In this document: in pieces, positions 12,613-15,857 of the stretch
Layout: each line of letters starts with the position of its first letter
Position numbering within the stretch: position 1 is the stretch's first letter
Origin: Thermoleophilia bacterium
GTDB lineage: Bacteria > Actinomycetota > Thermoleophilia > Miltoncostaeales > Miltoncostaeaceae
NCBI GenBank assembly: GCA_020438485.1
Contig: JAGQUM010000013.1
Coordinates: 1-58,676, forward strand
Length of the DNA: 58,676 bases
Direction of reading: 5' to 3'
Notes under the pieces: model-generated
Seen by the model: the letters and a program-made list of their open reading frames with translations, nothing else
Told to the model about the DNA's origin: nothing
Databases searched by the model: none
Program-made: the position numbers and the translations under genes

Positions 12613-13191
12613 TCAGGCCGCGATGCGGTCCTCAAGGTGCGCCTGGATGCGCTTGCGGGCGCGGTGGGTGCGAACGCGGGTCGCGCCCGGGGTCAGTTCC
12701 AGCACCTGGGCGATTTCGGCGGGCGACTCCCCGGCCAGGTCGCGGATCGCCACCTCGCGGTAGGTCTCCTCGAGGGCCATCACGGCGCCCATCAGGGCCT
12801 GGCGGATGTCCGCGGCGATCGCGGCCGACAGCGGGTCGGCGTCCGCGTCGCGCACGGGCGGGAGCTCCTCCACCGGGGTGGGCGCCTTGGAGCGCCGCAC
12901 GGCGAGGCGGTAGGCCTCGTTGCGGGCGATCGTGCACAGCCACGCGCCGAGGTCGTCGCCGCGGAAGCGCTCGATGTGGCGGAACACGCGCATCCACGTC
13001 TCCTGCGCGGCGTCCTGTGCGTCGTGGTGGTCGCGCAGCACGGCGCGGCACACGCGCATGACGCGCTGTTCGTGGGCGGACACCAGGGCGTCGGCGGCGG
13101 CGGGGTCGCCGGAGGCGATGCGCTGCAGCAACAGGGCGTCGGTGGTGGGGACCGGGCGGGACGGGCTGTGGGGGCGGGCGGTCGGGCTCAT
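12613..13191 (-). CDS. ECF-family RNA polymerase sigma factor
   Basis: 192 residues. Sigma-2 region with DAQDAAQETWMRVFRHIERF near residue 65, and sigma-4 helix-turn-helix with LAGESPAEIAQVLELTPGATRVRTHRARKRI at the end. ATG at 13191 has AAGGA seven bases upstream. A good ECF-type promoter lies in front of it, suggesting autoregulation. It is divergent from the zinc-finger anti-sigma gene at 13317, which could inhibit this factor, the one at 13571, or both. Confidence 0.9.
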   Translation of the reverse strand: MSPTARPHSPSRPVPTTDALLLQRIASGDPAAADALVSAHEQRVMRVCRAVLRDHHDAQDAAQETWMRVFRHIERFRGDDLGAWLCTIARNEAYRLAVRRSKAPTPVEELPPVRDADADPLSAAIAADIRQALMGAVMALEETYREVAIRDLAGESPAEIAQVLELTPGATRVRTHRARKRIQAHLEDRIAA

Positions 13192-13228: not shown

Positions 13229-13256
13229 ACGACGCGATGACCCGGCCTACGATTCC
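13229..13256 (-). promoter_or_regulatory. ECF-type promoter, probably autoregulatory
   Basis: Minus strand: GGAATC (13256-13251), 16 nt spacer, CGTCGT (13234-13229). The general ECF pattern is GGAAC-N16/17-CGTC. The expected start near 13222 gives a leader of about 30 nt to the ECF gene at 13191. Confidence 0.5.
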
Positions 13257-13263
13257 TTCGGCG

Positions 13264-13279
13264 CGAGGGAATATTCTCG
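13264..13279. promoter_or_regulatory. AT-rich inverted repeat in the divergent sigma intergenic region
   Basis: CGAGGGAATATTCTCG is a near-perfect palindrome centred on GAATATTC, an AT-rich island in a very GC-rich intergenic region. It lies between the ECF promoter and the anti-sigma start at 13317 and could be an operator or part of the second promoter. Confidence 0.35.
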
Positions 13280-13316
13280 TGACCGCCGTCGTCACCCCCC
13301 GTCGCGGGAGCCACGT

Positions 13317-13574
13317 GTGCCGCCCCAATCCGCCGAGTGCCGCCGCCTCGACGCCCTGCTCGACCGCGAGCTGGACGGCGAGCTCAGCCGGGAACAGTCC
13401 GAGTTCATGCGTGCCCACCTGGCCGCGTGCGGCTCGTGCCGGGAACGTCGCGCGTTCCACTCCACCGTGCGCGGGGTGATCGACCACGCGCTGCGCGACG
13501 AGGCCATGCCCCAGGGGATGGCCTCGCGCATGCTGCGCAGGCTCGACGAGATCCAGGACGCGGAGGAGGTGTGA
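13317..13574 (+). CDS. Zinc-finger anti-sigma factor (ZAS type, soluble)
   Basis: 85 residues. The N-terminal half contains a Cys (SAEC), the helix LDALLDRELDGELS and the HLAACGSC motif, matching the HxxxCxxC zinc-binding anti-sigma domain. There is no membrane helix, so it would act as a cytoplasmic anti-sigma factor, possibly redox-sensitive like RsrA. GTG 13317 has GGGAG six bases upstream. Its stop overlaps the next start (GTGA), so it is translationally coupled to the sigma factor it most likely controls. Confidence 0.85.
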   Translation: MPPQSAECRRLDALLDRELDGELSREQSEFMRAHLAACGSCRERRAFHSTVRGVIDHALRDEAMPQGMASRMLRRLDEIQDAEEV

Positions 13575-14551
13575 GGGGGCGCAGCACCGTCCGGCGGCGT
13601 GCGTTCGAGGGCTTCTTCGTGGCCGAGATGCCGGGGCTGTACCGGGCGGCGCGTCGGCGTGTGCACAACGACGCGGACGCGGAGGACCTGGTTCAGGAGA
13701 CCATGCTGCGCGCGTACCGCGCGTTCGACGAGGCCCGTCCGCCCGACAACCCGGCCGCGTGGTGCCAGACGATCCTCTCGAACCTCATCACCGACAGGGC
13801 ACGGGCGCGGCAGCGCACGCCGGACACCATGTCCGTGGACGACAGCGGCGCCGGCCTTTACGACCGGCTCGAGGCGGGGCGCGAGACCGGCATGTTCAGC
13901 GACCCCCACCGTCTGATCGAGCGCTGGAGCAACCGCGACGAGGTGCGCGCGGCCCTCGCGACGCTGCCGGAGTGGGGCAGGGAGGTGCTGGTGCTGGCCC
14001 ACGTCGGGGGGTTGCGCTACCGCGAGATCGCCGAGCAGCTGGGCGTGCCCGAGGGCACGGTCATGAGCCGGCTGGCGCGGGCGCGCCGGGCTCTGGAACG
14101 GGCGATGGCCGAGCGGGCCGGCCTGCCCGACGCGGCACCACCCAAGCGCCTCGACGCGCCGGCTCCCGCCGCGAAGCCGCGGCTCGACAGCCTCAAGGAG
14201 AGCTGGGGCGAGGTGCCGCCCGCGTTCACCGCCATGGCCGCGGACCCGTCGCTGTTGGAGGCCGCGGCCCGGATGATGGGCTCCGTGGTCAACGACGGGG
14301 CGCTGTCGGCGTCGATCAAGCGTCACCTGCTGGCCGCCGTGGCGGGCGCGCCCGGGGAGGGCCTGGACGGCCCCACCGCCGCGTTGGCCGCGTTCGTGCG
14401 CAGCGCCGCGGCCAACCCCGCCGGCCTCACGCCCACCGACTACGACCTGCTGTACGCGGAGGGCTGGACGCAGGCGCAGGTGCTCGAGGCCCTGCACCTG
14501 TCCGCGTTCGCGCCCTATCTCAGCCACATGAACGCCGCCCTTGGCGGCTAG
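13571..14551 (+). CDS. ECF sigma factor fused to a degenerate AhpD/carboxymuconolactone-decarboxylase-like domain
   Basis: 326 residues, far longer than a plain ECF factor (about 190). Residues 10-80 hold sigma-2 (NDADAEDLVQETMLRAYRAF) and 125-180 hold sigma-4 (LRYREIAEQLGVPEGTVMSRL). After a Pro/Ala linker, residues about 210-326 resemble an AhpD/CMD-type helical domain: VPPAFTAMAADPSLLEA at its start and LTPTDYDLLYAEGWTQAQ then a final helix with HMNAALG at the end. The Cys-x-x-Cys of active AhpD-like peroxidases is absent, so the domain is probably a sensor or protein-interaction module. GTG start overlaps the anti-sigma stop; a GGAGG lies four bases upstream. The oxidoreductase follows with an 11-bp overlap. 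Confidence 0.85.
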   Translation: MRGRSTVRRRAFEGFFVAEMPGLYRAARRRVHNDADAEDLVQETMLRAYRAFDEARPPDNPAAWCQTILSNLITDRARARQRTPDTMSVDDSGAGLYDRLEAGRETGMFSDPHRLIERWSNRDEVRAALATLPEWGREVLVLAHVGGLRYREIAEQLGVPEGTVMSRLARARRALERAMAERAGLPDAAPPKRLDAPAPAAKPRLDSLKESWGEVPPAFTAMAADPSLLEAAARMMGSVVNDGALSASIKRHLLAAVAGAPGEGLDGPTAALAAFVRSAAANPAGLTPTDYDLLYAEGWTQAQVLEALHLSAFAPYLSHMNAALGG

Positions 14552-15857
14552 CCCCGCCGCCCCTCCGGCCGCCCGCGTCGCCATCGTCGGGGGCGGCCTC
14601 GGCGCGCTGCTCGCGCACTCGGCCCTGCGCTTCCTGGGGCTCGACGCCGGCGACGTCCTGGTGTTCGCGGAGCACGCGGATCCCGTCACCACGTACCGCG
14701 CCCACGCGTGGGGGGTGGGGCAGACCGTCGTGCAGACCGACCCGCTGGGGCACTTCCTGCCCGCCGACTGGCCCACGCCGCGCGTGCTCAACGCGCTCGC
14801 CCGTGGCGGCAGCGGGGGCACGGTGAGCGTCGCCGACATGGTCGCGCAGGCCCGGGCCGTGGCGCGGCGCAGCGGCTACGCCGGCAGCGTGGTGCCCGCC
14901 CGGGTGGGGGAGGTGGTGCGGGCCCGCGACGCCCACGGCGCGTACTTCGGGCTGTACGACGAGAACGGCGCACTGATGGGGCTGGCCCGCCACGTGCTCG
15001 TGGCCGTGGGCCACGGGCCGCAGGCCCTGCCCGAGGTGCTCTCGGCGGCCCGCACCCACCCGCTGCTGCGCGACCGCGTGGTGCACGCCTATGAGCCCAA
15101 GCGGTACGCGGCGGGCGGGCGGTACATCGTCGTGGGCGGGGGCCTCGCCGCCGTCAACGAGTGGGTCAACTGCCTGGACGCCGGCGCCGAGTGCATCGCG
15201 GTGCAGCGCACGGCGGCCGGCCAGGAGGACCTCACGGCGCCGCGATGCCTGTTCGAGGCGCTGGGAATCGACGCGTACCAGGGGGTCAGCGCGCCCGACC
15301 GCCTGCGCGTGCGCCAGCGCGTGCTGCGCAGCGCCACCGCGGCGTCCACCGGATGGCACCGGCGCATCTCCGAGGCCATCGCCGCGGGCCGCTTCCGCGA
15401 GGTGGTGGGGGAGATCACGCGCGTCGCGCCAGGCGGGGAGGGCGTCGTCGCCGCGTGCGACCTGCGCGGGGGCGGCTCGACAGGCGACCTGCACGTCACC
15501 GGCATCACGTCTGCCACGGGCTTCGACCCCGACCCCGCCCACGTACCCCTGCTGGCCCGGCTGATCGCCCGCTACGCTCCGCCACGCGTCGGCCCCAGGC
15601 TGGCGCTGGCGCCGAACTGCGGGGTACCGGGCGTCGACATGCCGGACTCCCGCCTGTGCGTGACCGGGTTCCACGCCGTGGTTGCCGTGCCACACGCCGA
15701 CACGCTGGCCGGCCTCAAGTACGTCGCCCGCCGGTTCGCCGAGGACGTGATGCGCGCGGAGGGTACGCCGCGTCGCGGGCCCCTGGGGCGCGTGCGCGCC
15801 CAGGCCGCGTGCGTGCGGGCCGCCGTGGACGAACTGCGCCGGACCCCGGCGGCCTGA
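14541..15857 (+). CDS. FAD/NAD(P)-dependent oxidoreductase
   Basis: 438 residues. A Rossmann dinucleotide motif (VAIVGGGLGALLA) stands near residue 15 and a second (YIVVGGGLAAVNEW) near residue 195, the two-fold layout of flavin monooxygenases and lysine N-hydroxylase-like enzymes. The C-terminal ATGFDPDP and LCVTGFHAVV blocks fit the FAD-binding end. The TTG start lies inside the end of the sigma gene. As the third gene of an anti-sigma/sigma operon it is a likely member of the sigma factor's redox response; the substrate is unknown. Confidence 0.75.
   Translation: MAASPAAPPAARVAIVGGGLGALLAHSALRFLGLDAGDVLVFAEHADPVTTYRAHAWGVGQTVVQTDPLGHFLPADWPTPRVLNALARGGSGGTVSVADMVAQARAVARRSGYAGSVVPARVGEVVRARDAHGAYFGLYDENGALMGLARHVLVAVGHGPQALPEVLSAARTHPLLRDRVVHAYEPKRYAAGGRYIVVGGGLAAVNEWVNCLDAGAECIAVQRTAAGQEDLTAPRCLFEALGIDAYQGVSAPDRLRVRQRVLRSATAASTGWHRRISEAIAAGRFREVVGEITRVAPGGEGVVAACDLRGGGSTGDLHVTGITSATGFDPDPAHVPLLARLIARYAPPRVGPRLALAPNCGVPGVDMPDSRLCVTGFHAVVAVPHADTLAGLKYVARRFAEDVMRAEGTPRRGPLGRVRAQAACVRAAVDELRRTPAA

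Follow-up and report, generated by a model that had tools for sequence, protein, structure and literature searches.

An ECF sigma factor with a degenerate AhpD-like tail, encoded beside a zinc anti-sigma factor in one family of Thermoleophilia

How is a sigma factor regulated when a domain of enzymatic fold is fused to it and an anti-sigma factor is encoded at its side? ECF sigma factors are usually controlled by an anti-sigma factor or by a fused domain, and the sigma factor described here has both, its fused domain stemming from an antioxidant enzyme that has lost its active site. It is encoded in a window of 58,676 nucleotides, by which we mean the whole stretch of DNA analysed (contig JAGQUM010000013.1, assembly GCA_020438485.1), from a Thermoleophilia bacterium whose genome comprises 2.58 Mb in 91 contigs. 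A preliminary description proposed that a peroxidase-like domain had been captured as a sensor inside the sigma factor, giving double control by the fused domain and a zinc anti-sigma factor (ZAS). The features of the locus are as follows.

12613..13191, minus strand: second ECF sigma factor, 192 aa (Sigma70_r2, 8.9e-18; Sigma70_r4_2, 2.7e-8)
13231..13256, minus strand: promoter-like GGAAT-N17-CGTC facing the divergent ECF gene, kept in 4 genomes as GGAA(T/G)-N17-CGTC
13268..13293, plus strand: promoter-like GGAATA-N16-CGTC facing the anti-sigma/sigma operon, kept in four genomes
13317..13574, plus strand: soluble ZAS anti-sigma factor of the CHCC type, 85 aa (zf-HC2, 3.2e-8)
13571-14551, plus strand: fused ECF sigma factor, 326 aa, whole gene
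13571..14119, plus strand: ECF sigma regions 2 and 4, residues 1-183, SigH/SigR-like by sequence (TIGR02937, 3.6e-31)
14177..14548, plus strand: C-terminal AhpD/peroxidase-related domain, residues 203-326, active-site segment absent
14541..15857, plus strand: probable FAD/NAD(P)-dependent oxidoreductase, 438 aa
15861..16442, plus strand: small membrane protein, 193 aa, of the MCPTLLxRLQTR family, partner of the oxidoreductase, with hydrophobic segments; the protein is conserved

The genes for the anti-sigma factor, the ECF sigma factor, the oxidoreductase and the membrane protein are co-oriented on the plus strand, and a 125-bp divergent intergenic region separates this operon, led by the anti-sigma gene, from the second ECF gene on the minus strand. 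The first three genes overlap, the fused sigma gene sharing 4 nt with the anti-sigma gene and 11 nt with the oxidoreductase gene; these overlaps, together with the coordinates and lengths of the three products (open reading frames of 85, 326 and 438 aa), agree with the preliminary description. The five-gene block, divergent ECF included, is kept in 4 genomes of 2 genera, and this identical structure rules out a sequencing or frameshift artefact.

The N-terminal part of the fused protein (residues 1-183) is a normal ECF sigma factor, and its closest solved structure is Mycobacterium tuberculosis SigH (E 1e-22). The SigH_actino model TIGR02947 gives this core 105.9-107.6 bits against a cut-off of 251.6 bits, which is reached in none of the 41 relatives' genomes, and the fused sigma factor is the only match to the model at E <= 1e-20 in the host genome. 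Because its bit score is far under the cut-off, the core is named, on the strength of its sequence, SigH/SigR-like and is not filed as ECF12. The ECF12 pairs SigR-RsrA of Streptomyces and SigH-RshA of Mycobacterium resemble the present system in having a core nearest to SigH, a soluble CHCC-type ZAS protein and a GGAAT -35 element, but the sigma factor here falls below the SigH cut-off, its anti-sigma gene lies upstream (downstream in ECF12), an AhpD tail is attached, and the -10 element is CGTC and not GTT.

What is the C-terminal tail? Its approximately 124 residues (~203-326) have no Pfam match, and the isolated tail matches the NCBIfam peroxidase-related enzyme model TIGR01926 with E 1.1e-4 and 22.1 bits, below the cut-off of 81.8 bits. 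When a profile built from the tails of the four homologues was compared with the PDB at E values up to 10, all seven matches were AhpD-type proteins, peroxidase-related proteins or the debrominase Bmp8, with a best value of 0.0012. Profile-profile alignment (hhalign) with the standalone AhpD-like proteins found in relatives gave E 4.2e-9 over 111 columns, and a second AhpD-like set, in which in-frame TGA was written as Cys, gave 7e-9 over 113 columns; pairwise tail scores stand 5-10 standard deviations over those of shuffled tails. Modelled alone, the tail reached a mean pLDDT of 75.7 and a pTM of 0.63, and AhpD/CMD structures occupy the top of both the Foldseek and the VIA-align lists for this model (against 3c1l, Foldseek E 2.5e-4 with probability 1.00, and VIA-align Z 12.4 over 113 residues with rmsd 5.6). 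A Z of about 12 is by itself weak for a helical fold, and it is the match with the sequence evidence that decides. A chance match between helical bundles is ruled out: only AhpD proteins are found when sequence profiles are used by themselves, and the gap at the active site, described below, has the same position in the alignments to two AhpD sets. With sequence profile, profile-profile and fold comparisons in accord, the tail is an AhpD/peroxidase-related domain of the CMD superfamily, as had been claimed beforehand from its helical pattern, and its model does match AhpD folds. The full-length model of the fused sigma factor is poor (pTM 0.33), and contacts between its domains are therefore unreadable from it.

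The domain appears to be catalytically dead. A gap of ~30 residues in both alignments deletes the CxxC pair together with the His that comes after it; both halves of AhpD are retained. At the Glu position, 12 residues ahead of the first Cys and corresponding to AhpD Glu118, the four tails have His, Ala or Arg. No Cys is found in the tail of any of the 4 homologues. Thus the lack of Cys-x-x-Cys noted in the preliminary description was correct, and the degeneration exceeds what was described there, since the entire segment bearing the motif is absent. Compared with the peroxidase-related AhpD proteins (TIGR01926; PDB 3c1l, 2oyo, 2prr and 6k40), the tail is alike in fold and in sequence across both halves, but it is fused to a sigma factor, lacks the CxxC/His segment, has its Glu replaced and remains at 22.1 bits where 81.8 are called for. 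Judged from the alignments, the AhpD domain is without any catalytic residue, its active-site segment having been excised. The absence of Cys across the four homologues rules out that the tail is a thiol peroxidase or a redox sensor of the CxxC type, and the loss of Glu, of both Cys and of His excludes any peroxide or thiol sensing through the AhpD active site. The proposal of a captured sensor with double control is borne out in part, as to the captured AhpD fold and the presence of a ZAS anti-sigma factor; any sensing by the tail would have to go through ligand or protein binding.

Is the tail, then, simply a remnant? Its dN/dS is 0.20-0.39 (0.06-0.41 for the sigma domains), its identity across the two genera is ~61%, no stops interrupt it in four genomes, and several of its motifs are invariant: the tail is under purifying selection. 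These values speak against a neutral leftover, that is, a tolerated and decaying read-through fusion, which we consider highly improbable even though the fusion is confined to two genera and the tail is less conserved than the sigma core. The tail keeps the AhpD core helices, and its C-terminal helix is almost invariant; together with the oligomeric nature of AhpD-family enzymes, this would suit a structural or oligomerisation add-on that stabilises the sigma factor or its complex and receives no signal. Such an add-on leaves the constraint beyond folding without a reason, and we think it improbable.

A third alternative is that a small molecule, bound by the dead AhpD domain, gates the sigma factor independently of the ZAS protein. 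In favour of such a pseudo-enzyme sensor, the fold is kept and constrained, and the fold matches of the tail include the dual-sensor-bound GATOR2 entry 9lwf (Z 8.3), whose chain Y is presumably Sestrin2. A precedent within the AhpD fold exists in the leucine site of Sestrin2, which lies in an AhpD-like C-terminal domain (PMC6530209), although leucine sensing by Sestrin2 is debated across settings (PMC6530209), and in the tail the deleted segment sits at the very place of the former active site. Ligand gating of this kind is accordingly a tentative idea that we hold to be unlikely.

The redox sensor of the module is far more likely to be the CHCC-type ZAS anti-sigma factor than the tail. The HxxxCxxC motif reported for this protein in the preliminary description is present and conserved, and extends to C8, H34, C38 and C41, forming C-x25-H-x3-C-x2-C in all four homologues. 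Against the RsrA model TIGR03988 the protein scores 2.8e-10 and 40.1 bits, below the cut-off of 62.5 bits. The zinc ligands of RsrA are C11, H37, C41 and C44 (PMC4960319), so that the spacing is exactly that of RsrA, a type of anti-sigma factor known as a sensor of disulfide stress, and sigma release from RsrA on oxidation requires the N-terminal Cys ligand (PMC4960319); the identical spacing and this requirement are the reasons for regarding the ZAS protein as the likely sensor. Its gene lies upstream of the fused sigma gene in 4/4 genomes.

Which promoters would the released sigma factor read? In 5000 dinucleotide shuffles per region, sites never arose on both strands as they do here. The -35 element on the divergent side reads GGAAG in two of the four genomes, and the exact GGAAT-N17-CGTC occurs at 13 sites across the host genome, among them the one facing the divergent ECF gene (two for the reversed control). 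SigH-type factors prefer GGAAT as -35 (PMC10012870). When the autoregulated ECF12-type promoter GGAAT-N18-19-GTT was set against GGAAT-N18-GTC in the four genomes, the -35 element fitted and the -10 element differed. Because the predicted promoters form a divergent pair, the arrangement suggests that one sigma factor drives both operons, and either of the two ECFs may be the one that reads the motif. A wider conserved regulon was considered and rejected: other GGAAT-N17-CGTC sites in the four genomes do not stand before obviously orthologous genes, and the claim is for this reason limited to the divergent pair at the present locus. Of the few further sites in the host genome, one (L169, G000:C8:2697-2722) is found 45 nt ahead of a probable Ser/Thr protein kinase gene, which may be an additional target. 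The divergent ECF (12613-13191) has no adjoining anti-sigma factor of its own; it might be controlled by the same ZAS protein or take a later place in a cascade.

Gene anatomy, AhpD ancestry, loss of the active site, conservation and promoter motifs, as set out above, are computational findings; as an account of how the parts work together, we lean slightly towards a self-contained stress-response module, in which a ZAS redox lock and the module's own and divergent promoters are combined with a dead AhpD domain of regulatory or docking function. By analogy with RsrA/SigR, the CHCC-type zinc anti-sigma factor would keep the SigH/SigR-like sigma factor inactive in a reduced cytoplasm; because the genes overlap with the anti-sigma gene first, the lock would be made together with the sigma factor. 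Thiol oxidation would then form a disulfide, expel zinc and release the sigma factor, again as in RsrA/SigR, and the released protein might, on the same model, read the back-to-back GGAA(T/G)-N17-CGTC promoters of its own operon and of the divergent ECF. Transcription of the former would yield anti-sigma factor, sigma factor, FAD oxidoreductase and membrane protein. The dead AhpD domain could serve as a built-in regulatory or docking part, tuning activity through the sigma core, the anti-sigma factor or another partner, as the SnoaL domain of ECF41 and the selective constraint on the tail would suggest. Against this module speak the SigH score far under its cut-off, the CGTC in place of GTT at the -10 element and, in the two closest pairs, a tail that outpaces the sigma domains in its evolution. 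A stronger version, in which the dead AhpD domain is a ligand-sensing module and transcription requires both thiol oxidation and a metabolite as two independent inputs, strikes us as doubtful; if true, this two-input sigma factor would be a bacterial counterpart of Sestrin and would represent a new class of control for ECF sigma factors.

How does this arrangement compare with known systems? In ECF41, a fused domain controls the sigma factor (PMC3426412), and oxidoreductase or CMD genes are found as neighbours (PMC3426412). Members such as SigJ and Ecf41Bli are alike in having a domain of enzyme fold at the ECF C-terminus and a small local target set, but ECF41 has a SnoaL domain, no anti-sigma factor and CxxC-bearing CMD enzymes as separate genes, in place of an AhpD-like tail and a ZAS protein. 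Membership in ECF41 is ruled out, with SnoaL absent and an anti-sigma factor present, its gene overlapping the sigma gene. Sestrin2 is likewise an AhpD-fold protein reused in signalling, and differs in being eukaryotic, in having other partners and in its known leucine site (PMC6530209). A review describes no fewer than 26 extension-bearing ECF groups as being without anti-sigma factors, and the types it names include SnoaL, TPR, WD40, YCII and Cys-rich (PMC8999054); neither AhpD nor CMD is mentioned in it. By this description, a ZAS anti-sigma factor beside an extension-bearing ECF is unusual. In the full-text literature searched, ECF and AhpD/CMD were reported together only as neighbouring genes, and no ECF group already known to carry an AhpD fusion was found, the groups being compared through this review. 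The locus combines known parts in a new arrangement, which suggests that a dead enzyme has been put to use in the control of genes. The fused sigma factor offers a clean natural case in which to ask how an enzyme fold turns into a regulator, with tail-less relatives for comparison, and the two short promoters make a ready reporter.

The fusion is narrowly distributed. Within one Thermoleophilia family, full-length matches to the tail profile occur in 4 of 42 genomes, which belong to 2 of its 12 genera; the same four genomes are the only matches among 299 class genomes, and 396 phylum genomes yielded no match beyond the family, both sets being incomplete samples. An alignment search returned only two fused homologues (Actinomycetota bacterium KLAP93 and Thermoleophilia bacterium SJ49) in addition to tail-less sigma factors, and a single-protein pattern search of genome contigs gave zero matches. 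None of 18 sigma relatives examined from other lineages has more than 35 residues past the matched part, and the CHCC ZAS motif found beside 11 of these 18 is always downstream; the fused lineage is therefore set apart from its tail-less relatives by gene order as well as by the tail. Among the AhpD-like genes of class relatives, four (L036, L042, L045 and L046) carry a TGA codon, in frame, at the active site, C-H-Y-(TGA) corresponding to C-x-x-U, and are probably selenocysteine proteins. L059/L040 (G026:C1:310254-310778) is probably also such a gene.

The remaining two genes of the operon appear to have a history of their own. The earlier label of the oxidoreductase as an FAD enzyme is founded on two glycine-rich dinucleotide-binding motifs together with weak matches, below cut-off, of its homologues to Lys_Orn_oxgnase and Pyr_redox_2 (best 0.0082). 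It is 51-63% identical to the copies in the other three genomes, and the search for a solved structural relative found none. The oxidoreductase and membrane protein are a conserved pair also in three further genomes of the class (G010, G028 and G061; L196, L197 and L198), where the tail profile detects no fused sigma factor, and for this reason the two genes seem to have been paired before they became associated with the fused sigma factor. No clear family emerges for either the oxidoreductase or the MCPTLLxRLQTR membrane protein. The pair in G010 is directly preceded by a protein kinase gene.
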